A DNA stretch of 64,000 bases from Coleofasciculus sp. FACHB-1120 (GCF_014698845.1 NZ_JACJTV010000015.1:62001-126000), one strand, 5' to 3'; shown: positions 6,185-21,936, numbered from the stretch's first letter. The notes: a model not told the origin generated them from the sequence alone. Numbers and translations are program-made.

Positions 6185-8338
6185 CTAGGCGATCGCATAA
6201 TTGTAGTAACCGCATCGCTCTTGAATGGCAGCGATCGCGTCCAGTATCGTGCTAAGAGCAACGCTATTCTCCGGTTTAAATAGCATCTGGCGCAGATAAG
6301 GCAATGCTCCAGCGCTGCCGATTTTCCCTAGACTATAGGCAGCCTTCTCCCGAACGCTAACGTCTTCGTGGTTAACAGCTTGCCTGAGCGCCCCTACTGC
6401 CGACGGGCTACGGATTTGACCTAATGCCCAGGCAACACTCCCCCGAACGCTAGCATCTGGGTGATTGAGAGCTTGTCGCAGTGCCGCTACCGCCGCCGGA
6501 GTGCCGATTTGACCTAACGCCCAAGCTGCACTGCCACCCACAGTTGCATCCTCATCGTTCAACGCCTCCAACAGCCCCACCACCGCAGCCGGAGAGCCAA
6601 TTTCGCCTAAAGCCTCCGCAGCCTTCTCGCGCACCCGATAGTCTCGATCGTGCAAAGCTTCCAGAAGTCCGGCAACAGCAATCTGGCAGCGAATGCTCCC
6701 TAAAGCAGAAGCAGCATTTTCACGCACCCGATAGTCTCGATCGTGCAAAGCCTCCAGAAGTCCGGCAACAGCTGCCGGGGAGCCAATTTTTTCTAACGCA
6801 GCCGCAGCACTTTGACGAACCCCAAAATCTTCATCCTGTAACGCTTGTCGCAGCCCCACGACGCTCTCTTCACTGCCGATTTTCCCTAAAGCCTCAGCCG
6901 CTTTCTCTCGAACATCAAAGTTTGGATGGTTTAAAGCTTGCAGCAGCGCCGCTACGCCTTCCGCTTTGCCCATAGAACCCAGAGCATAAGCAGCCATCCA
7001 ACCCACCCAGGAATCGTCATCATCCAAAGCTTCTAAAAGCCCAGCTACCACTGCTTGGGCATGTGCAGCCGCGATGCCCCTTCTGCCGATTTTCCGTAAA
7101 GCATAGGCAGCACCCCTCCGAACATAAAAATCTTGATCCTTTAAAGCTTCTAGTAACCCTGACATTGCTGCCGGAGAGCCGATTAAACCCAACCCATAGG
7201 CAGCACAACTGCGAACCTCATAATCTTCATCTTTCAGAGCCTCCAGCAGCCCCGACACTGCCAACGAGCTGCCGGTAACGCCTAAACCGAATGCAGCCCT
7301 CTCGCGCACCCGATAGTCTCGATCTTTCAAAACATCCAGCAGCGTCGCCACCGCCTCCTCGCTGCCAATTTTCCCTAAAGCATAGGCAGCTCTTCGGCGA
7401 ACATCAAAGTCATCATCGTTCAACGCTTTCCCTAGGACTATCACCGTCTCTTGGGTGCCAATCGAACCTAACGCTTCGGCGGCTTTTTGACGTACCCGAT
7501 AGCTTTCATCATTTAACGCTTGTAGTAGTGCCGATATCGCCTGGTGGGTGGGAATTTGACCTAAGGCATAGGCAGCATTGTAACGCACCCGAAAATCTGC
7601 ATCGTTCAATGCTTCTAGCAGCGCCGATACCGCCTGCTGGGTGGGGATTTGACCTAAAGCATAAGCAGCTCTCCCACGCACATCAAAGTCCTCATCGTTC
7701 AATGCTTGCCGTAGCACCTCTACGGCTGCCTGAGTGCCAATCGAACCCAGAGCATAAGCTGCACTCTCGCGTACCTGAAAGTCTTCATCGTTCAAGGCTT
7801 GCCGTAGTCCCAGCACTGCCGCATTGGTGCCGCTAGAACCTAATCCATAGGCTGCACTCAACCGAACTCCAGAGTCCTCATCGTTCAATACTTCCAGTAG
7901 TGCTGTCACAACGGCATCGGTGCCGATAGAACCCAACCCATAAGCGGCACTTTCACGCACCTTCGCATCTGAGTGGTGAAGCGCTGGGAGTAGGCTGGGA
8001 ATTGCACTATCAGAGCCAGTGATGCCTAAAAGTTGAAACTTCAACTCTTGAGGAACTTCTAGAGACGCAACTAAATCAACGGTTGCGGCTTGAAACTCCG
8101 GTTTAACGGCTCCTGCCAGCTGTGCGCCTAACCTTAAATCCACTTCTAAGGCTAACTTCACGACTCGCACTACCTGAGCTTTTTCCTCCAAGCCCTGTAA
8201 CATCTGCATTATGGAGTCTGTCCATTTCAGATAATTTAAATACTCCTGTTTGAGCAGGTTATCACTCAGTAGGAGTAGGTGTTGGAGGGGGTTTTCGGCG
8301 GTGTAAGATTCCTGAATCGGTTGGTGATGCAATTCCAT
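6185..8338 (-). CDS. HEAT-repeat protein (about 19 PBS-lyase-type repeats)
   Basis: 717 residues. From about residue 105 to the end it consists of ~31-residue HEAT repeats of the form DEDFxVRESAAYALGxIGTxxAVxxLxxAL. The ~100-residue helical N-terminus (PLQHLLLLSDNLLKQEYL...KAQVVRVVKLALEVDLRLGA) resembles, from memory, the linker found between NACHT-type ATPase and repeat domains in cyanobacterial STAND proteins. No ATPase is encoded here, so it may be a stand-alone sensor or scaffold arm. HEAT arrays of this type occur in phycocyanobilin lyases (CpcE/F), but the array is too long and too uniform to call a lyase. Neighbouring units are nearly identical in DNA (49 nt with one mismatch at 6631-6679 and 6724-6772), so the array is still being homogenised. 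Confidence 0.9.
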   Translation of the reverse strand: MELHHQPIQESYTAENPLQHLLLLSDNLLKQEYLNYLKWTDSIMQMLQGLEEKAQVVRVVKLALEVDLRLGAQLAGAVKPEFQAATVDLVASLEVPQELKFQLLGITGSDSAIPSLLPALHHSDAKVRESAAYGLGSIGTDAVVTALLEVLNDEDSGVRLSAAYGLGSSGTNAAVLGLRQALNDEDFQVRESAAYALGSIGTQAAVEVLRQALNDEDFDVRGRAAYALGQIPTQQAVSALLEALNDADFRVRYNAAYALGQIPTHQAISALLQALNDESYRVRQKAAEALGSIGTQETVIVLGKALNDDDFDVRRRAAYALGKIGSEEAVATLLDVLKDRDYRVRERAAFGLGVTGSSLAVSGLLEALKDEDYEVRSCAAYGLGLIGSPAAMSGLLEALKDQDFYVRRGAAYALRKIGRRGIAAAHAQAVVAGLLEALDDDDSWVGWMAAYALGSMGKAEGVAALLQALNHPNFDVREKAAEALGKIGSEESVVGLRQALQDEDFGVRQSAAAALEKIGSPAAVAGLLEALHDRDYRVRENAASALGSIRCQIAVAGLLEALHDRDYRVREKAAEALGEIGSPAAVVGLLEALNDEDATVGGSAAWALGQIGTPAAVAALRQALNHPDASVRGSVAWALGQIRSPSAVGALRQAVNHEDVSVREKAAYSLGKIGSAGALPYLRQMLFKPENSVALSTILDAIAAIQERCGYYNYAIA

Positions 8339-12357: not shown

Positions 12358-14274
12358 CTAAACCGTTGCCGGTACTAACAAGTCAAAAACTAATGGTTCC
12401 TCTAGTTTTTGGTAAGTGCTTGTCAGGATGGTGTTTAAATAGCGAAGATAGCGATCGCCCTGCTGAGCATTCAATCGATACATCTGCGTCGCTTCTTTCT
12501 CAAAAAGTGGAGCCGATGCGATCGCTTGATAGTCAGGATTTTGCTCAGAGCTGGAACTCAGCAGTCCAAACTCGGCTTCCGATGGCACGATACCCGCAGG
12601 CAGCTTGCCTTCCAAAAGCGCCATGATGCGAGAATAACAAACCCGCGTATTGATGCCGCGATACTCTAATAACTGCATAATTTCCTGAAGCGGCAGCGGT
12701 TCTTCGGGTAACGCGCGTAAAAGTTCCAAAAGCAGAAAATAATCACTGTACTGCTGTGTTTGTTGCTCCAACATTTGAGGATACAGCGGTACTGTAGCCA
12801 AACCGTAAGCGACTGGACTACAGTTTAGGGTTGAGTCGTTTGAGCCTGTGTCCCGAATCAAGACGGCTTTTGGGAGTTTTTGTCGCAGCCATTGAGCGAT
12901 TTCCCCGACGGCGGCGGTTCCGCCAGTACAGATAATTTGATGAATTCCCGACGCGGGTATCCCTGCCTGAGTTACCAGCGCATTCAATTCTTGATTCAGT
13001 TTTTCAATAAACGGTTTGAACACGCGGTTTTCTAAGTCTTGGCGTGTCACCAAACAGGACTTTCCGCCTACTTCCACGGTATAGCTGTCTTGCTGTTGCA
13101 GAATTCGTTTGAGAGAATTGGCAGCTTCTAGAAGCGCTTGTCCGAGGGGAGAACTTTGCAATAACGATGCTAAGCGATCGCGCGTTGCTAAATCGGGTTC
13201 TCCGGCTTTGGGAAGGATCAAGGATGAAGAATGCAGGATGAAGGATGACTCGAATTCATCTTTCATCTTGCCCTCTTCATCGTTCAACAGTAATTGCCCG
13301 ATGATGTCTTGATCGATAGCGTTACCTGCATAGGCAAGACTCCGACAAGCAAACTGAGAATAAGTTAAGTCTTTAAGATTTTCGGGCAAATTCACCAAAG
13401 CGAGTTCAATCGTCGTAGCACCCGCATTAATCACCAGAGTCCCGCCTTGCCAGGGTACTCCCGGTAGGGTTGCACCTTCAATCCCTGCCAACAAAGTAGC
13501 GATCGCATCCTCAAGAAAGAAGATTTCCTCTGGATTTTCCACCAGATGGGCACCCAGTACGGCTTCGCGGATGTTAAAGCGGTAGGTATCTCCCCATTTA
13601 GCAGGACAACCGACAATCACACCACTCAAGCAACTCATCGCTGCATTCAGCGTCGAGGGCTTTAAACCAGCGGCACCCACCAAATTAGCTCTAGGTTGTT
13701 CTGGGGGTGATAGGGGGTTTCTCTGACCTGCTAGGGGTCTGAGAGTGGCAAATAATGCTTGCAAGGAGCGCCCCAGCCAGTAAAGAGAAATTGGCTGGTC
13801 GAGAGACCACTGCAATATCGGCTCCCATTTTTTGGCAGATGAATAGTAAGGAATTCCCACCTTCAAATAGGGTTTAAAACCTTGGATAAAGATTCCTTCT
13901 TGGCGATTGGCAAGAGAAGACGCCAGGACACCCACAGCGATCGCTGCTGGCGTATGCGAGGAAGCGCTACTCGCGGCTGGCATATCGGCGGAATCGCTAC
14001 TGGCAACCTCCGATGACGGCACGGAACTTCCCCAGGCTGGCCCCGTGTAAGTCACCGCTGGTAAACGGAAGCTGGTTTTGGTAGATTCTGTCTGTCCTTG
14101 GGTTATCCAATAGATGGGATATCGTTCACCCGTCGAACCATTTAACAAAACAGCGGAAACGCCAGTTGTCCCAAAGTCAATTCCTAAGTACCAGGCATAC
14201 TTGCTGACATTTTCCGCAGGAGAGCGTTTTGCAGACGGAAGGATAGTAGAAGAAGGAATTGAATTTGGATTCAT
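12358..14274 (-). CDS. Hsp70-like actin-fold ATPase without a canonical substrate-binding domain
   Basis: 638 residues. After a ~28-residue Ser/Pro-rich lead, WYLGIDFGTTGVSAVL is the phosphate-1 loop of the Hsp70/actin family. VINAGATTIELAL occupies the phosphate-2 position but is degenerate compared with DxGGGTxD. IICTGGTAAVGEIAQWL matches the adenosine-binding region. The residues after about 500 form a helical tail unlike a DnaK substrate-binding domain, so it is not DnaK. The stretch KMKDEFESSFILHSSSLIL in the middle looks like a translated dispersed repeat (see 13213-13275). It lies 74 bp downstream of the large coiled-coil gene on the same strand, which suggests a common transcript and function. 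What it acts on is unknown. Confidence 0.85.
   Translation of the reverse strand: MNPNSIPSSTILPSAKRSPAENVSKYAWYLGIDFGTTGVSAVLLNGSTGERYPIYWITQGQTESTKTSFRLPAVTYTGPAWGSSVPSSEVASSDSADMPAASSASSHTPAAIAVGVLASSLANRQEGIFIQGFKPYLKVGIPYYSSAKKWEPILQWSLDQPISLYWLGRSLQALFATLRPLAGQRNPLSPPEQPRANLVGAAGLKPSTLNAAMSCLSGVIVGCPAKWGDTYRFNIREAVLGAHLVENPEEIFFLEDAIATLLAGIEGATLPGVPWQGGTLVINAGATTIELALVNLPENLKDLTYSQFACRSLAYAGNAIDQDIIGQLLLNDEEGKMKDEFESSFILHSSSLILPKAGEPDLATRDRLASLLQSSPLGQALLEAANSLKRILQQQDSYTVEVGGKSCLVTRQDLENRVFKPFIEKLNQELNALVTQAGIPASGIHQIICTGGTAAVGEIAQWLRQKLPKAVLIRDTGSNDSTLNCSPVAYGLATVPLYPQMLEQQTQQYSDYFLLLELLRALPEEPLPLQEIMQLLEYRGINTRVCYSRIMALLEGKLPAGIVPSEAEFGLLSSSSEQNPDYQAIASAPLFEKEATQMYRLNAQQGDRYLRYLNTILTSTYQKLEEPLVFDLLVPATV
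13213..13275 (-). repeat. Dispersed hairpin-forming repeat read in frame inside the Hsp70-like gene
   Basis: On the minus strand this reads ATGAAAGATGAATTC, a spacer, then TTCATCCTGCATTCTTCAT, two complementary halves. It encodes a MKDEFESSFILHSSSL-type peptide that looks unrelated to the ATPase fold. A relative lies in the oxidoreductase gene near 48308-48364. Confidence 0.6.
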
Positions 14275-14348
14275 TATCCCGATTGGAAGCGCTTTTATAC
14301 TCTCTAAAACAAATGGAGATTCAAGGGTAATTCCCTGATTGGGTATCC

Positions 14349-17300
14349 CTACGGAGTTTTTTTTTCCGGGTTGGATGACTCTGAGAATAGATCCAGATCG
14401 GAATCGTCAGTTTGAGGCAGCATCGGCTCGGAAACGGCTTCTTCCTGCGGTTCGACAGACGAATTGTTGGGGAACTGAGCGATCGCGTCATCTGGTGGAG
14501 TGATGAGTTCTTCCAAGCGCAATAATTCTTCCTCCCAATCCGCTTCCCCTAGCTGTGTTATTTCCACTTGAGAATTTTCTGGCATTTCCTCAAATTCCCA
14601 GTCGCCTAAGTCTTCTTCCTGCAACGCTGTTAGCGCATCAATGTCGGCAGCGATCGCCCTTTCTCTGGGGAATTCTAGACTCTGTTCCTCATCGGCAAAT
14701 AATTCCCACGATTCATCGAACTCAATCGATACGGTTGTCTCCCCGTCAGTAATTTCTGGCGTCTGTTGTTCTTGCGAGTCAGCGATGTATTCTGGCTCTA
14801 GCGCCGCCGTTTCTGTTTCTGTTTCAGTGGGTAGCTCTAGATTGAGTTCTTCTTCAGTAAACAATGCCAACGATTCATCAAAATCGATGGCGGCTGGTGC
14901 CTCTCTTGAGGGAGTGGCTGACTCTTCCCACTCCCAGTCAGCAACGTATTCTTGCTCCAGCGCCGCTGTTTCTGTTTCTGTTTCAGTGGGTAGCTCTAGA
15001 TTGAGTTCTTCTTCAGGGAAGAATGCCAACGATTCATCAAAATCGATGGCGGCGGGTGCCTCCCTTCGCGGATTGGCTGGCTCTTCCCACTCCCAGTCAG
15101 CAACGTATTCTTGCTCCAGCGCCGCCGTTTCTGTCGGTATCTCTAGATTGAGTTCTACTTCGGGGAACAATCCCAACGATTCATCAAAATCGATGGTTTC
15201 TGGCGTCTCTTCTAGTGTCTCGGTTGAAGTGATTCCTAACGTCTGTTGCTGCGAGTCGCCTATATATTCTTCTATATATTCTGGCTCCTCCGGTGTTCCT
15301 AATTCTGCTTCTGTTATCGAACCTAGCGAGAGCGATACTTCCGACGCTTCATCAGGGTTCGCGGGGGGAAGGAAAGCGATCGCTTTGTCTGGAGGTGGAT
15401 CTAAGGGTTCTACAGGAAACAAAGAAGCCAAATTCCAATCTGGTCTTTCATCGGATACTGCTGCCGTGTTCGCTGTATCCGGCTCCTGATGGTTCGAGGT
15501 TTGTGGCTGGTGAGCGATCGCGGTTTCGGTTTCTGCTAGGCTGAATTCCTCAGACGGCAATCGTTCCGACTCCTCATCTGTCTGGGGAAGCAAATCCTCC
15601 TCCACAAAGCTATCTAAGGCGAGATCGTCCCAATCTTCCATCAACAACTCATCCAGTTCTGTCACTGGCGCTTCCTGGAAAAATTGAATTTCAACTTGTG
15701 GGTGTCTCGTCCTCTGGGTTGTTTCTGACGCTTGTTCCGCTTGTGTTTCAACAGCGTCAACCCTCTCCCCTTCTATCTCCGTCCCAAAAAGCTCTTCCCC
15801 CTCTGCGAACCAGTCAGCTTGAGTCTGGTTTTCTGTACCGTTATTATTAAATGCTTCTACATGGTTTTCCTGCTCCCTTGATTGCGGGAACACGCCCCCC
15901 TGCGGTGCCTCAAAGCTAGACAGGTCTTCACTCAGCAGTTGCAGTGTATCTCGATCCAGCCAAAAAAATTCGTCTTGGTCAACTGAGAAAGTATCCATCG
16001 CCAGCAGATTCTCGTCTGGAGAAGCTGGAATGTAGATATCTTCGTCCAGACTGGCAGATTCCTCGGTCGCAGGTTGCTCCGTGTCCTGGGTTTGAATGTC
16101 CTGGATCTGAGTATTCTGGATCTGAGTATTCTGGATTTGAGTGATTTCCTCCAGACTAGGAAGTGTAGCGATTGCTAAGGGAGATTCCTCTGCTAGTATT
16201 TCCGGCTCCTGCAACAGATCCTCTTGCAATAGATCAGTTAGTGCCGAAATGACCAGATCCCCTTCTTCCACGGTTTCCGTAATGAAGGCTTCATTCGTTT
16301 CGACATTTTGATCGTCTCTGGCAATTGTCGGATCGCTTGCCCAATTCCCAGCTTGGACAACAGTAATATCCCAATCTTCTGGAAATAAAACATCTTCCCA
16401 AGACTCCTCGACTTCCTCTCCTCTAGCAGATGGTTGCGCGATCGCGGCATCTTCAGCGGGGTCTCCCAAGCCTGCAAACAGGGCATCCTCTAAAGAGTCC
16501 TGACTACCATAGGAACGGGGTTTTCTTTCCCCTGCTGAGTCTTGAGGGATAATTGGCTCTTTACTTTCCGCCTGAACTTGGGTATCTCCAGCAGGAGCAG
16601 CCCCCGGTTTCTCAGCACTTTGCTCTGGTGGTTCGGAACTCTGTGGGAGCGGCGGTGTCCCAAACAAGCTTTCAAAAAAATCGTCGATTTCGTCGCGCTT
16701 CCTTTCGGGAGTGTCTGGAAGGATAGGCTCCGTCTGGAAGATAGTTTTCATATCATCGTCATCAAGCGATGCCACATCCAGATTGCCCAGGTTCTCCAGG
16801 TTAAAGTCTTCTAGAGCGCTACTCCCGGAACCAGCACCTGGGTTCGATGAAGTGCTAGGCAATATTGTCCCGAAGAAATTGTCCCGTTGAGAGAGTTGCC
16901 CTTGAACCGACTCCCCTAAGCTGTCTCCTGGTAGATTGAACGGGGGACTTTGCGGCTGTACCTGTTCCACCGAGCGGAGGGGCAATTCAACACCCGGATA
17001 AGGCAATGGTTCTCTGGAGACAGGAACATCATTCGCCAAGTTGAGTTCGTTGCGATTAGAGGGTGCTGAGGGGGGTTGATCCAGAGGAGTTCGGGGTTCT
17101 CGCTGGGGATAGGAAAGTTGCGGATTGCCTCTTCCTGGCGTTGTTGCAGCCGTACTCGCGCTGCTGGCATCTCCTTGTGAAATCTGCCGCGATGATTGCA
17201 AAATTGCTGAGGCTTCTTGTTGTAACTGCTCGGTGAGCTGATTCACCAAATCTGTAAACATCACCTCGCTCTGGTGCCCCAAGTTGTGCATTTTATCAAG

Positions 17301-18038
17301 TCCTTGGGCCAAAGATTCTTGATAGCTAAAAAGATTGCGTTGTAGTGCCTCGAAGACTGTACGAATGGTTGAATCCAGCGTTGCTAGCAGTTGATCGGAT
17401 TTTGCCTGTAAAGTTTGCAGTTGTTCCAGACGCTCTCGCGGATGTAAAGGCAAAGAATTGCTGGATATCGCGTCTGAATAGCTAGGCGAGGAATTATAGA
17501 GTTGTTTCTGACTTTCTGAAGGGAGTATCTCAGCACTCAAAAACTGAGTTTCTAGATTTTTCAGGGTTTGAGCCATCTGTTGCGTGAGGCTTTCCTGCAA
17601 ACGGCTAGAAAGTACCTGCAAGAATTCGGAAATCAGTTGCTGCTGTGCCGCTTGTTGCTGGGCAAGGGTTCGATGGTGCAGCCGATAACTCTCCATCTGC
17701 CGAATCTCTAGAACCAGAGACTCCCGCTGTTGGCGAAGATTCTCCAGATCGCGCTGCAAGGAGTGCATCAAGCTGGTTCGCACAGCTTCCATATCTTGTT
17801 CAACCGCTTGCACAATCTGTCGTGCTGTTGCCTGCGGTTGGTAATTTTCCTGATGCCGAGCTTCATCTCCAGCACCTGATTGTTGCCGTGAGACTAAATA
17901 GGTACGAACCTGCTCCAGAAGCCGACGCTGCTCTTGGACATCAACTGACCTGAGCCAAGGCCGACGGGAGTTGGCCTTGTGGAGGATGCTGTCGATGTCG
18001 GCGATTAGTGTAGAAATCGCATCCGTCTCGTGAGTCAC
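14349..18038 (-). CDS. Very large coiled-coil and acidic repeat protein of unknown function
   Basis: 1229 residues. Residues 1 to ~290 are helical and Gln/Leu/Arg-rich with strong coiled-coil character (DLENLRQQRESLVLEIRQME, QQAAQQQLISEFLQVLSSRL). Residues ~290-410 are Pro/Ser-rich. The rest is very acidic and apparently disordered, with regularly placed aromatic-acidic motifs. Four tandem units of 49-53 residues (near residues 930-1110) carry IDFDESLxxFxEEELNLE, then ADWEWEE. There is no signal peptide or membrane segment, so it is probably cytosolic. I recognise no family. The adjacent downstream Hsp70-like gene suggests the repeats are client or docking sites for that ATPase, which is inference. 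The start MTHETDAIS is the first ATG of the frame after the promoter region. Confidence 0.85.
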   Translation of the reverse strand: MTHETDAISTLIADIDSILHKANSRRPWLRSVDVQEQRRLLEQVRTYLVSRQQSGAGDEARHQENYQPQATARQIVQAVEQDMEAVRTSLMHSLQRDLENLRQQRESLVLEIRQMESYRLHHRTLAQQQAAQQQLISEFLQVLSSRLQESLTQQMAQTLKNLETQFLSAEILPSESQKQLYNSSPSYSDAISSNSLPLHPRERLEQLQTLQAKSDQLLATLDSTIRTVFEALQRNLFSYQESLAQGLDKMHNLGHQSEVMFTDLVNQLTEQLQQEASAILQSSRQISQGDASSASTAATTPGRGNPQLSYPQREPRTPLDQPPSAPSNRNELNLANDVPVSREPLPYPGVELPLRSVEQVQPQSPPFNLPGDSLGESVQGQLSQRDNFFGTILPSTSSNPGAGSGSSALEDFNLENLGNLDVASLDDDDMKTIFQTEPILPDTPERKRDEIDDFFESLFGTPPLPQSSEPPEQSAEKPGAAPAGDTQVQAESKEPIIPQDSAGERKPRSYGSQDSLEDALFAGLGDPAEDAAIAQPSARGEEVEESWEDVLFPEDWDITVVQAGNWASDPTIARDDQNVETNEAFITETVEEGDLVISALTDLLQEDLLQEPEILAEESPLAIATLPSLEEITQIQNTQIQNTQIQDIQTQDTEQPATEESASLDEDIYIPASPDENLLAMDTFSVDQDEFFWLDRDTLQLLSEDLSSFEAPQGGVFPQSREQENHVEAFNNNGTENQTQADWFAEGEELFGTEIEGERVDAVETQAEQASETTQRTRHPQVEIQFFQEAPVTELDELLMEDWDDLALDSFVEEDLLPQTDEESERLPSEEFSLAETETAIAHQPQTSNHQEPDTANTAAVSDERPDWNLASLFPVEPLDPPPDKAIAFLPPANPDEASEVSLSLGSITEAELGTPEEPEYIEEYIGDSQQQTLGITSTETLEETPETIDFDESLGLFPEVELNLEIPTETAALEQEYVADWEWEEPANPRREAPAAIDFDESLAFFPEEELNLELPTETETETAALEQEYVADWEWEESATPSREAPAAIDFDESLALFTEEELNLELPTETETETAALEPEYIADSQEQQTPEITDGETTVSIEFDESWELFADEEQSLEFPRERAIAADIDALTALQEEDLGDWEFEEMPENSQVEITQLGEADWEEELLRLEELITPPDDAIAQFPNNSSVEPQEEAVSEPMLPQTDDSDLDLFSESSNPEKKTP
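14712..15230 (-). repeat. In-gene tandem repeat, four units of about 147-159 bp
   Basis: Units begin near 15180, 15031, 14872 and 14712 (GATTCATC..AATCGATGG on the plus strand). The two middle units are almost identical in DNA as well as protein, including a TTTCTGTTTCTGTTTCAG stretch. Spacing is a multiple of three, so the frame is kept. Confidence 0.85.
16088..16143 (-). repeat. Short 15-bp in-frame tandem repeat
   Basis: Repeated CTGGATCTGAGTATT units encode QIQNTQIQNTQIQDIQ inside the large acidic protein, consistent with slippage in a tolerant disordered region. Confidence 0.7.
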
Positions 18039-18571
18039 AATGGAATCCCTGGCTAGAACGATTGCACAGTTATGAGAAGTTACTATACTGCCACTGCCTA
18101 TAATGTTAGACTGCCCAACAAGAACAACTTATATTAAACAGGGTGTTACATCTACCGGGTGAATTATTTCAAGACTGGTAATTCTAAATGTAGATAGATT
18201 TCTGGGCTGTAGCATTTTGTCACCAAAAGGGGACAAAGAAAGCGATCGCCCAAAATCAAAGCGTTTTGGATTAAGATGTGAGTTTTGCTAGATGCGCCAG
18301 CAGCGAGTCGCGGGTTTCCTCTATGAGGATAATAAAGATAGGGTCACTCGCCAATGGGTGCCTTCCAGCTTTGGTTGGTACACTGCCAAGAGCCTCCTGT
18401 TCAGCCTAATTATCTTCGAGAGTGTAAACGAACACCCTATTCTGGTGATGCCGACCTGATTGCTAAAAGTTTCCAGCTTAACGGTTGCTCTTGATTCAAA
18501 CGCTACCAGCCAGCCCCACTCCAGTGGGCCACTCTTTATCAGTTCTTAGCTTTTTCATTTGTGTTGGCCCA
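18039..18571. other. Intergenic region between the coiled-coil gene and the Crp/Fnr gene
   Basis: This 533-bp stretch separates two divergent genes and should hold both promoters. It has one HIP1 site (18242-18249) and one small candidate reading frame (18292-18459). I see no clear hairpin terminator or RNA gene. Confidence 0.5.
18292..18459 (+). CDS. Candidate 55-residue small protein
   Basis: ATG at 18292 to TGA at 18457-18459 gives MRQQRVAGFLYEDNKDRVTR..., ending ESVNEHPILVMPT. A hydrophobic middle (KSLLFSLIIFESV) could be an amphipathic or short membrane helix. There is no convincing ribosome-binding site and no family that I recognise. It may be a chance frame or a leader peptide ahead of the regulator gene. 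Confidence 0.22.
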   Translation: MRQQRVAGFLYEDNKDRVTRQWVPSSFGWYTAKSLLFSLIIFESVNEHPILVMPT

Positions 18572-19279
18572 ATGGAAGACCGATACACCCCCCGCGAACC
18601 GAACTCTAACATGAATGCGTTGATTCGCTCCACACCTTTATTTACCGGCTTACCCGATGCCGTTGTGGAGAAAGCCATTTCTCATGTCGTCACTCGTACC
18701 CATCCGGCAAATCAGGTGATTTTGCTGGAAAATGACTGGGGCGGCTCTGTCTACTTTATTTTGGAGGGTTGGGCGAAAATTCGCACCTACAACCTCGATG
18801 GTAAAGAAGTAACGCTGAATATTCTTGGGAAAGGAGAACTTTTTGGCGAAATGGCAGCGTTGGATGAAGTCCCTCGTTCAACCGATGTGATAACGCTAAC
18901 TCCTACGACGATTGGCAGTATGCCTGCTCAAGATTTTGTTCAGTTAATTCATAACGAACCACTCGCAGGCGTTCGCTTGGCTCAGCTGATGGCAAAACGC
19001 CTGCGTCAAGTCAACCGTCGTCTCCGATTGCGAGAATCAGATAGTATGTCCCGTGTTGCCGACACGTTATTATTTTTGGCAGAAGGACAGGGAAAAACTG
19101 CCCAAAAAGGAACGATGATTCCGAATTTACCTCATCGTGAGTTAAGTAGCCTGAGCGGTCTGGCGAGAGAAACGGTGACGCGGGTGTTAACAAAGCTGGA
19201 AAAAAAGGCGCTGATTATGCGCGACCACGAGATCCTGTGCATTCCCGATTTGGCGGCTTTGGAACGGCTAATCGTCTAG
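18572..19279 (+). CDS. Crp/Fnr-family transcriptional regulator
   Basis: 235 residues from MEDRYTPREP (the frame is open to 18485, and a later ATG at 18611 is also possible). An N-terminal cyclic-nucleotide-binding-type beta barrel (VILLENDWGGSVYFILEGWAKI, GKGELFGEMAALDEVPRSTDV) is followed by a dimerisation helix and a winged helix (LPHRELSSLSGLARETVTRVLTKLE). The FGEMAALDEVPRST segment resembles the cAMP phosphate-binding cassette (GELALxxxxPRxA), so a small-molecule ligand is plausible but unproven. No FNR-type iron-sulfur cysteines are present. It is followed 55 bp later by a universal stress protein. It is not NtcA as far as the recognition helix shows. Confidence 0.9.
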   Translation: MEDRYTPREPNSNMNALIRSTPLFTGLPDAVVEKAISHVVTRTHPANQVILLENDWGGSVYFILEGWAKIRTYNLDGKEVTLNILGKGELFGEMAALDEVPRSTDVITLTPTTIGSMPAQDFVQLIHNEPLAGVRLAQLMAKRLRQVNRRLRLRESDSMSRVADTLLFLAEGQGKTAQKGTMIPNLPHRELSSLSGLARETVTRVLTKLEKKALIMRDHEILCIPDLAALERLIV

Positions 19280-19334
19280 TTAATGTACAGCAGTGGCACC
19301 TTGAGTGCCCAACTGCAATTTATCTGGGTGCCTA

Positions 19335-19865
19335 ATGATGGGTTTTCAGAAAATATTGGTTGCTATCGACGACTCTTCTGGATGTCAAGCTGTCTTCGCT
19401 CAAGCGCTGGAATTGGCGCAGGCGAATCGCGGGGCAATGATGCTGCTGCATTGCCTCAATAGCGAGATACTGGGTGAAATAACGCCACGCCTCTCTGGTG
19501 AGATGGGTTTTTATCCCCCAATGGTGACAACCTATGAAAATCACCACCTACTCATGGAAAGGCGAATCCAGGAGGTGCAAGATTTGCTACGAAGTTACTG
19601 CGAAAAATCCACCAGTCAGAAAGTGCCGACGGAGTTTGATTATAAAGTGGGCGAGGCTGGGCAAATGCTCTGTCAAGCGGCTGAGAATTGGGGTGCCGAT
19701 TTGATTGTGATGGGACGCCGGGGGCACAAGGGATTGACAGAAGCGTTACTAGGGAGTGCGAGTAACTATGTACTGCACCATGCTCCTTGTTCTGTGTTGG
19801 TAATTCAGGGCATGGATACGGAGCATCCTGAGTTACTGGCAACGGAAGAAATAGCGGATGGATAA
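19335..19865 (+). CDS. Universal stress protein (UspA family)
   Basis: 176 residues from MMGFQKILVAIDDSS; the ATG at 19338 is an equal alternative and the longer frame from 19305 adds unlike residues. The ATP-binding motif is present near the C-terminus (GRRGHKGLTEALLGSASNYV, then CSVLVI), so it belongs to the nucleotide-binding Usp subclass. Such proteins accumulate in stress and are usually dimers in the cytosol. Position just downstream of a Crp/Fnr regulator suggests, but does not show, regulation by it. Confidence 0.92.
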   Translation: MMGFQKILVAIDDSSGCQAVFAQALELAQANRGAMMLLHCLNSEILGEITPRLSGEMGFYPPMVTTYENHHLLMERRIQEVQDLLRSYCEKSTSQKVPTEFDYKVGEAGQMLCQAAENWGADLIVMGRRGHKGLTEALLGSASNYVLHHAPCSVLVIQGMDTEHPELLATEEIADG

Positions 19866-19979
19866 AGGGATACTGGGAATTGGTAATGGGTCTTCCGATT
19901 TTCTCCTGAAGCTGCTGACGTTCGGCTCAAAAGTGGAATAGAGGTTAAATTTAGGATCTGGCTTTGTTTTTTAATCTGC

Positions 19980-20735
19980 ATGAGAGATCCTTTTGAAGAC
20001 AGTCAAGCTTCCGGTCTGGGTAATTCTCAGAAAATCGAAGAGAAGGCGGATCTAAGCGAAATGCCCCCGGCAACCAGTGCCCAAGGCGACAATTATTCCG
20101 AACCCCAGGTGAAGGCAGTTGCGCCCCTGATCATGGTGGAAACTGCGTTTCTAGCGAGTACCTGTAGCCTGATTTGGCTGATTAATTATTATTTTCCAAT
20201 GGGACCGCTGCTGCGGATGTTTTTCCCAATCCCGATTGCCCTCGTTTACCTGCGGTGGGGATACCGGGCGGCTTGGATGGCAGCGTTGGTTTCTGGGTTG
20301 CTGTTGTCCGTCCTGATGGGGCCAACTCGCAGCATTCTGTTTCTGATCCCCTACGGTCTCATGGGTGTCCAACTGGGGGCTTTGTGGCGGCGCAGGAGCA
20401 GCTGGCTGTTCTCGATTGGGACGGGGACAATTATTGGTACGTTTGGATTCTTTTTTCGGTTTTGGCTGCTGTCGATTTTACTGGGGGAAGACCTCTGGGT
20501 TTACATGACTAGCCAGGTGACGGGATTGGCAGAGTGGGCATTTGTCAAGATAGGCCTACTGCAAGAGCCTAGTCTATCTTTGATTCAGGCGATCGCATTC
20601 GGCATGATCGTTCTTAATAATGTTATCTATCTGTTTGTCGTGCATCTGGTAGCTTTGCTGCTACTCGATCGTTTGGGCAACCCGATTCCCCGCCCCCCTC
20701 ATTGGGTACAAGTCCTGCTGGATTATGAAGAATAA
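19980..20735 (+). CDS. DUF2232-type multi-pass membrane protein
   Basis: 251 residues: a ~45-residue polar, acidic N-terminus, then about six hydrophobic helices (for example PLIMVETAFLASTCSLIWLI, AAWMAALVSGLLLSVLM, AIAFGMIVLNNVIYLFVVHL). The arrangement, with PIPIALVYLRWGYRAAW early and a C-terminal LLLLDRLG, fits DUF2232 (YybS-like) proteins, which are related in fold to ECF transporter substrate-binding subunits. No ECF ATPase lies in the window. The CobT-like gene starts 88 bp downstream on the same strand, so they may form an operon. Confidence 0.8.
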   Translation: MRDPFEDSQASGLGNSQKIEEKADLSEMPPATSAQGDNYSEPQVKAVAPLIMVETAFLASTCSLIWLINYYFPMGPLLRMFFPIPIALVYLRWGYRAAWMAALVSGLLLSVLMGPTRSILFLIPYGLMGVQLGALWRRRSSWLFSIGTGTIIGTFGFFFRFWLLSILLGEDLWVYMTSQVTGLAEWAFVKIGLLQEPSLSLIQAIAFGMIVLNNVIYLFVVHLVALLLLDRLGNPIPRPPHWVQVLLDYEE

Positions 20736-20823
20736 GGGTTAAAGGTTAAAGGTTGAAGGTTGATTTCGCCTTTTTCCAGTTGCTTTGCGCCTCGCCACGA
20801 CTCAACCCTCAATCCAAAACTCG

Positions 20824-21936
20824 ATGATTCATGTCTACACTCAGATAGAACAGGGACATCGATGGCTCCAGCGATATCGGGGACGCTCATCGGTGTTTGC
20901 TTGTGTTTTAGGCTTTACCGCCACCGGGCTGATCCCCGGTATTTCAGCGGCTGGAGCAACGCCAGAGGATCGACGATATACAGCGATCGCAGATGCGGAA
21001 TTTTTGTATAAAGGTCCTCAGCCTCAGCCCCAATATCCCCTGCCTCCTCTGCAAGCGGGTGCCTCTCCAGTGCTAATTTCCCGCGCGGTGGTTGAAGCAC
21101 TTGGTATTCCCGTTTATCTGTTCAATGCCGGATTGCCCCAGCCGCCAACTGTCCCAGTGATTGATTTGGGAGGTGCCCCTGCTCAATGTCTCAGCGGCGG
21201 AAATGCTTTACCTGTCGCGACTGTGAAACATCTGTGGGAACAAGGATTGATTTGGGGGGAAAAACTCGCCGCAAGTCTCCCTGATGGATATTTAATTCTG
21301 GGCGAGTGCGTGGTGGGGGGAACCACAACGGCTTTAGCGATTTTAACGGGCTTAGGTGTCCCTGCTGCCGGTAAGGTCAACAGCAGCCATCCTAGCTGCA
21401 ATCACGCGCAAAAGTGGGCTGTGGTGGAAGCTGGGCTGCAAGCCCTGAGGAGCAGAGAGGCTCAGGGGCACAAGAGTAACGTTCATACACAAGACCCTTT
21501 ACATCTGGTTGCGGCAATTGGCGATCCGATGCAAATTGCAGTAGCGGGGATGGCGATCGCTGCGAGTCGCACTTGCGGCGTCATGCTGGCTGGTGGAACG
21601 CAAATGCTGGCTGTCTATGCCTTGATGCAAGCGCTGGGGCGTCAATATTCCCTATCCTGGGAACCCGAACAAGTTGTGGTGGGAACGACTCGCTGGGTGG
21701 CAGAAGATCCGACTGGCGATACGGTCGGCTTAGCAAAAACAATTAGCCCAGTCCCTCTACTGGGAACTGGGCTAAGTTTTGCACCCTCTCGTTATCCTCA
21801 ACTGCGGGCTTATGAGCAGGGATATGTTAAAGAAGGCATGGGTGCGGGCGGATGTGCGATCGCGGCTCATTTAACTCAGGGTTGGCAGCAGGAGCAATTA
21901 CTCCAGGCCATTGAAATGTTAATCGAGCGTTGTTGA
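20824..21936 (+). CDS. CobT-like protein of the TIGR00303 family
   Basis: 370 residues from MIHVYTQIEQGHRWLQ; the preceding in-frame start at 20785 adds 13 unlike residues. Segments such as GFTATGLIPGISAAGATPEDRRYTAIADAEFL, LGECVVGGTTTALAILTGLG and AGGTQMLAVYALMQALG match the nicotinate-nucleotide-dimethylbenzimidazole phosphoribosyltransferase-like family found in cyanobacteria and archaea. Family members are assigned to activation of the cobalamin lower ligand, but activity is less certain than for true CobT; here the usual catalytic glutamate region was not identified. Start choice rests on family-like sequence, not on a ribosome-binding site. Confidence 0.85.
   Translation: MIHVYTQIEQGHRWLQRYRGRSSVFACVLGFTATGLIPGISAAGATPEDRRYTAIADAEFLYKGPQPQPQYPLPPLQAGASPVLISRAVVEALGIPVYLFNAGLPQPPTVPVIDLGGAPAQCLSGGNALPVATVKHLWEQGLIWGEKLAASLPDGYLILGECVVGGTTTALAILTGLGVPAAGKVNSSHPSCNHAQKWAVVEAGLQALRSREAQGHKSNVHTQDPLHLVAAIGDPMQIAVAGMAIAASRTCGVMLAGGTQMLAVYALMQALGRQYSLSWEPEQVVVGTTRWVAEDPTGDTVGLAKTISPVPLLGTGLSFAPSRYPQLRAYEQGYVKEGMGAGGCAIAAHLTQGWQQEQLLQAIEMLIERC

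Follow-up and report, generated by a model that had tools for sequence, protein, structure and literature searches.

Two long frames follow each other on the minus strand of a 64,000-nucleotide stretch from Coleofasciculus sp. FACHB-1120 (GCF_014698845.1, NZ_JACJTV010000015.1:62001-126000; the whole stretch is called the window below). The upstream frame encodes 1229 amino acids (aa) with an N-terminal coiled coil, and the downstream frame of 638 aa encodes an Hsp70-like ATPase. Are these two neighbouring genes, and what is made from them? An earlier note on this DNA had described two genes 74 bp apart. Both open reading frames (ORFs) and their spacing were found again; however, they probably belong to a single gene that is read in two frames, because the ATPase frame is open upstream across a run of nine adenines (A9), where the frames overlap. 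On balance, we consider it fairly probable that this one gene encodes a coiled coil-ATPase scaffold, that slippage at the A-run gives rise to two subunits, and that these constitute a septal, SepJ-linked nucleotide switch. The features of the locus are as follows.

12358-14274, minus strand: ATPase frame, 638 aa from an ATG (ORF calling; structure model and fold search)
12361-12783, minus strand: conserved C-terminal domain, residues 498-638, in place of the Hsp70 substrate-binding domain (alignment, model)
12790-14202, minus strand: Hsp70/actin-fold nucleotide-binding core, residues about 25-495 (alignment, AlphaFold2 model, fold search)
14349-18038, minus strand: coiled coil-linker frame, 1229 aa, GTG start (ORF calling)
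14349-17189, minus strand: acidic, mostly disordered linker of about 950 aa, stopping in the coiled-coil frame at a TAG after the A-run
14357-14365, minus strand: A9 run, CCGG-AAAAAAAAA-CTCCG-TAG, proposed slippage site (both frames open across the run)
14777-15196, minus strand: 159-bp repeats, 2.7 copies plus a diverged copy (Tandem Repeats Finder)
17190-18038, minus strand: SepJ-type coiled-coil domain of about 280 aa (alignments, hhalign, reciprocal profile searches)

Neither the 1229-aa nor the 638-aa protein reached a family cut-off in Pfam and NCBIfam searches, and a scan of contigs with the single ATPase sequence as query gave no relative, whereas an alignment used as query did. In this profile scan of the contigs of 84,980 species, the best 80 of 414 relatives were kept, and these 80 are all found in cyanobacterial records. 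Coiled coil, linker and ATPase form one open frame in 60 of the 80 kept loci; in 14 the coiled coil is adjacent on the same strand, and the remaining 6 are truncated at the end of a contig. In each of the 74 named loci that could be tested, the coiled coil thus lies directly upstream of the ATPase, either adjacent or fused. The earlier note had proposed a dedicated assembly and not a general chaperone, a view it would have given up if the two were rarely neighbours in other genomes. The conserved adjacency or fusion therefore argues for a dedicated assembly and makes a general chaperone unlikely. Our literature search, for which subscription papers were largely out of reach, found no description of such a coiled coil-ATPase protein.

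Searches of whole genomes also showed the two parts adjacent or fused in most sampled genomes. Exceptions are G118, G111 and G123, where the ATPase has a short or unrecognised N-terminus, G095 and G097 with a reduced ATPase, and G185 with a coiled coil and no ATPase. In G185 the coiled coil is a stand-alone protein of 404 aa (L117:8736-9950, minus strand), and SepJ was not detectable in this genome. Three mini-fusions of 555-586 aa were seen as well (L070:8664-10331, minus strand; L071:8932-10689 and L072:8396-10156, plus strand). They have a near-zero linker, a degenerate phosphate-1 motif (FLGIDLTSEQ) and no C-terminal domain, and no SepJ was found in their genomes; possibly they are pseudo-ATPase relics.

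How one gene could be read in two frames is suggested by the junction, whose A-run the earlier note does not mention. In the window, the coiled-coil frame stops 8 nt past the A9 run and the ATPase frame is open upstream to about position 14406, an overlap of 58 nt. By arithmetic, one additional A would join both frames to encode a protein of about 1890 aa. In Trichocoleus, the nearest relative with 75% identity, the gene is fused in frame through a run of eleven A (A11). Within a discovery set of 120 loci, the linker contains a run of A8-A11 in 52 and of A9 or longer in 47, and in each of the 13 run-bearing split loci a change by one A gives access to the ATPase. A third class comprises splits without a run, mostly with an ATG of their own 6-24 aa before the ATPase domain. 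Elsewhere in the coding sequence of these loci, runs of at least nine A occur 7 times in 780 kb. The window holds two A9 runs versus 3.5 expected by composition, so that a single A9 is not unusual; what stands out is that it recurs at the same site.

A held-out set was formed by the junctions of 57 additional, previously unused loci that were selected by family; 56 of them were testable. Of the split loci, 27 of 27 contain an A9-A11 run that the ATPase frame crosses without a stop; of the fused loci, 4 of 29 contain a run. In order to join the frames, one more A (equivalent to a -1 frameshift) is needed in 22 of these 27 splits and one A less in the other 5. Before the ATPase domain, 18 of the 27 have no in-frame ATG and 8 have neither ATG nor GTG, so that an intact ATPase could hardly be made there without a slip. 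Outside the Nostocaceae, one non-ATPase frame stops within three codons of the run in 22 of 23 cases versus about 29% at random linker positions, an enrichment that for split loci exists partly by construction. In Microcoleus, a run of ten A (A10) is found in a fused locus (L190) and in split loci (L193, L197, L102), since the upstream phase has changed.

The contrast between split and fused loci, together with frames that a slip by one A would join, suggests a slippage like that of dnaX, yielding a coiled-coil-only and a coiled coil-ATPase product. As in genes of the dnaX type, a conserved slippery run lies in the overlap of two frames, one of which ends soon after. Both Thermus dnaX and insertion sequence (IS) elements of Nostoc sp. 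PCC 7120 make use of slippage on poly-A (PMC1088944). With dnaX, where an A9 run causes transcriptional slippage in Thermus thermophilus and a -1 ribosomal frameshift occurs in E. coli, the present gene has in common an A-run inside a long gene, a stop close by in one frame while another stays open over a long distance, and products that would share their N-terminus. However, the proteins are unrelated, and the longer product is the standard one for dnaX, whereas here, in most split species, it is the longer product that would need the slip. Transcriptional slippage, which the mixed directions fit, or -1 ribosomal frameshifting may act at the run; the two are not distinguishable by sequence. 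The main text of the study on GeneTack frame-transition clusters (PMC3711429) does not mention the gene.

The coiled coil connects the protein to SepJ, a relation that the earlier note does not have. Searches with this domain, which carries the conserved segment LDxTLxxVFExLQRNLxSYxxSLxQGLxxMHxLGxQxE, revealed in most genomes a second locus, whose product combines this coiled coil with an EamA permease. In all six Nostocaceae examples inspected, the second locus adjoins the gene for HetR (299 aa, PDB 3qod, E 4e-180), and sepJ is known to lie beside hetR (alr2338/alr2339; PMC4192349). Judged by its EamA domain (Pfam) and the hetR synteny, the second locus is SepJ, and HmpF was dropped as the coiled-coil paralogue on the same grounds. 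Comparison of both coiled coils by hhalign gave a match of 99.5% (E 3e-23, 31% identity, 183 columns), which goes beyond the heptads and spans the specific segment YxxSLxxxLxxMHxLxxQGE. In nearly every genome, matches to a SepJ profile were limited to SepJ and the coiled coil-ATPase protein. According to these alignments, the coiled coil is homologous to that of SepJ.

SepJ (FraG, Alr2338 in Anabaena PCC 7120) resembles the present protein in its homologous N-terminal coiled coil, in a variable low-complexity linker and in its occurrence in the same organisms. However, SepJ ends in a DMT/EamA permease and the present protein in an Hsp70-like ATPase. No match to an EamA/DMT permease or another Pfam domain was found in the 1229-aa protein, and neither a signal peptide nor a membrane domain was seen in the coiled coil-ATPase protein. 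Among 194 cyanobacterial genomes, the ATPase is present in 43 of 44 with SepJ and in 7 of 150 without (Fisher's test, 2e-34, with relatedness ignored). These seven all belong to two families, and the members of one of them (f5) are reduced, having lost phosphate-1 or the C-terminal domain. From the homology and the co-occurrence together we infer a septal site and role of the protein. The coiled coil of SepJ was predicted in a 2025 paper to pass partly into the periplasm (PMC12096826). Here a homologous coiled coil is attached to an ATPase, for which only the cytosol comes into question; independently, if indirectly, this would indicate that the domain works in the cytosol.

A further protein with a SepJ-like arrangement is SepI (Alr3364, 521 aa), which is a partner of SepJ and has a coiled coil and linker-like domains without a permease (PMC12421839, PMC12096826). 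A similar spacing to sepJ in G042 had raised SepI as a candidate for the N-terminal half of the coiled coil-ATPase protein. This was dropped: the region in G042 gave no match, and 521 aa does not fit. Set apart by length and description and not by sequence, SepI is far shorter than the fused Nostocaceae proteins (1150-1500 aa) and no ATPase is described for it.

The Hsp70 fold of the ATPase, as claimed in the earlier note, was borne out at the level of the Hsp70/actin superfamily. An AlphaFold2 model of the 638-aa protein, built with 66 homologues in the alignment, reached a predicted local distance difference test (pLDDT) of 84.4 and a predicted TM-score (pTM) of 0.88. In the PDB it matched DnaK with Z 22.2 (root-mean-square deviation 4.0 over 375 residues; Foldseek E 7e-15). 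MreB ties with this result (Z 21.0), so that the fold alone cannot separate Hsp70 from other actin-fold ATPases. A profile-profile comparison with own DnaKs gave 91.6% (E 8e-7). The protein missed the cut-off of the Pfam family HSP70 (PF00012; 10.1 bits vs 20.6), and none of the actin-like families MreB, FtsA and PilM was matched significantly either (PilM_2 18.1 bits vs 27; MreB model 14.5 vs 293). A phmmer search of PDB chains with the ATPase sequence yielded no match.

In the window, the motifs read GIDFGTTG (phosphate-1), VINAGATT (a degenerate phosphate-2) and CTGGTA (adenosine). The Asp of phosphate-1 is kept in all 66 homologues, the Glu of connect-1 in 65, and the glycines of the adenosine motif in 66 and 65. 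In agreement with the degenerate phosphate-2 loop noted before, the position of its Asp is occupied by Asn in 54 homologues and by Asp in one. Lys 134 is invariant (66/66) and, read by eye, would be the equivalent of the catalytic Lys of Hsp70. The ATPase is likely to bind nucleotide with slow or no hydrolysis. After residue 500 or so, a conserved domain of about 140 aa follows, modelled as mostly helical with a short beta hairpin; the beta-sandwich and lid of a DnaK-type substrate domain, already reported as missing, are not seen there. Modelled alone, this domain is weakly winged-helix-like (best Z 7.3, PadR), level with unmatched controls, and we claim no fold for it because this score is no better than background. 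In summary, the nucleotide-binding fold and the phosphate-1, connect-1 and adenosine motifs are those of Hsp70/DnaK, whereas the missed Pfam cut-off, the lost phosphate-2 Asp, the missing substrate-binding domain, the fused coiled coil and the private C-terminal domain are not. A separate Hsp70-like protein of 531 aa (L004:1027-2622, minus strand), widespread in cyanobacteria, follows as the next weak relative in searches with the ATPase profile.

The linker between both domains is acidic throughout, with a median of 20% D+E and 3% K+R in the 120 loci; its length ranges from 0 to 1716 aa, and length and sequence vary between species. The 1229-aa protein fits the earlier description of an N-terminal coiled coil followed by a long acidic tail. 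Less can be kept of four near-identical units, each with ADWEWEE, and of their proposed role as a docking array or client. Repeats do exist (2.7 copies of 159 bp, 87% match), but three copies are similar and one is diverged, and ADWEWEE is exact in two only. Furthermore, the unit was seen in the window genome alone, Trichocoleus has a different repeat at this place, and where the proteins are fused, the tail forms a linker; a conserved docking array of four repeats was rejected since the repeat was not found outside the window genome. Four short motifs that recur across lineages appear to be better candidates for docking elements: DELDxxYxSLFG, YIPASPxENLL, LDxxxLxxLxxDLxxF and LTDLF. They are present in 13-20 of 42 non-Nostocaceae linkers and in 28-62 of 74 Nostocaceae linkers, each with a shuffled expectation of at most 0.34, and shared ancestry inflates these counts.

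Upstream of the gene, one neighbour is to be added to the features:

18485-19279, plus strand: divergent Crp/Fnr-type regulator (cNMP-binding and HTH_Crp; Pfam), a recurrent neighbour

In most sampled loci the divergent neighbours (18485-21936, plus strand, in the window) are this Crp-type regulator, a DUF2232 membrane protein and a CobT-like gene; neighbour clusters recur in 13-15 of 19 loci. A search by way of the neighbours did not establish the locus tag in PCC 7120. On the other side of the gene, a 717-aa protein with HEAT repeats for most of its length is encoded at 6185-8338 (minus strand).

Other explanations have to be weighed against a single gene with slippage. Two co-transcribed genes could be present, with the ATPase made from its own ATG (14274) and acting in trans on the coiled-coil protein, the repeats or tail of which would be its docking array or client. 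The ATG and the 74-bp spacing in the window, about ten true splits with an ATG and without an A-run (e.g. L122, L123, L124, L126, L129, L192, L114) and the conserved short motifs of the tail speak for this, and yet it seems unlikely to us, given frames that are both open across the run, a closest relative that is fused, many run-bearing splits without a usable ATPase start and a repeat unit that is not conserved. The gene could also be simply fused and seem split through a sequencing or assembly error in the homopolymer, or have been broken by a recent frameshift mutation; we regard this as quite improbable. Homopolymers are prone to both, the break sits in the A9 run and the sister genome is in frame; however, dozens of genomes share the run, among them single-contig ones (e.g. 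G286, G484, G513), its length is mostly ten, the near stop is far more frequent than expected, and such runs are otherwise avoided in coding sequence. An error would leave the keeping of the run unexplained. Several observations also weigh against slippage. The A10 of Nostocaceae encodes E-K-K-K and is maybe a protein motif written with AAA codons, which make up 70% of Lys codons, although in the loci listed neither of its first two Lys codons is ever AAG. Many Nostocaceae have no A-run, the constitutively fused clade f25 has none either, so that two products are not universally required, and in the window an ATG lies 30 aa before the domain, from which the ATPase could be translated alone.

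The tie to SepJ is subject to a similar doubt. The coiled coil could be a generic oligomerisation module and the ATPase could serve cell shape, motility, polysaccharide export or a general scaffold, a reading we take seriously even if we think it will rather turn out wrong. It would account for the reduced forms in SepJ-less genomes (G143, G147, G183, G111, G123) and for neighbours (Crp-type regulator, DUF2232, CobT-like) that give no pointer to septa. These reduced forms also count against a septal, SepJ-linked switch, as does G051 (L209:5242-7242, minus strand), a small Nostocaceae genome of 3.8 Mb and the only one of the 44 with SepJ that has no ATPase. A generic module is difficult to reconcile with a SepJ profile that in nearly every genome matches nothing else, with the almost complete co-occurrence, and with a coiled-coil match that takes in the specific segment and not just heptads.

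Thus, we favour a single gene whose product would be a cytosolic scaffold, in which a long tether, acidic and disordered but with a few conserved short motifs, connects a SepJ-type coiled coil to an Hsp70-like nucleotide switch that has its private C-terminal domain. In the window genome and many filamentous cyanobacteria, RNA polymerase or the ribosome would slip on the A9-A11 run and join the coiled-coil and ATPase frames, so that ATPase-less and ATPase-bearing subunits could arise from one gene, as gamma and tau do from dnaX. In other lineages, the fusion would be constitutive or there would be two true separate genes. The coiled coil would most likely co-assemble with itself and/or with SepJ at the intercellular septum, where some subunits would bear the tethered ATPase and others not. 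The nucleotide state could then alter assembly or partners, and the tethered switch would in this way act on the assembly or state of the septal junction.

If slippage does take place, the A9-A11 run would be a widespread case of programmed slippage; among the cellular genes of bacteria, few such cases are known. The way SepJ works in bacterial multicellularity has been called elusive (PMC12096826), and FtsA is missing from cyanobacteria (PMC7766704). Only tentatively do we propose that SepJ has an unrecognised Hsp70-like partner in filamentous cyanobacteria, which is made as two subunits, with slippage setting their ratio, and which works from the cytosol to assemble or gate the connections between cells. 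The finding bears on the debated periplasmic location of the SepJ coiled coil, as the same domain is joined here to an ATPase; if the proposal is true, a SepJ-type coiled coil would be placed in the cytoplasm, at least in this protein. A cytosolic nucleotide-binding partner that shares the coiled coil of SepJ would then provide the field of multicellularity with an energy- or nucleotide-dependent component.

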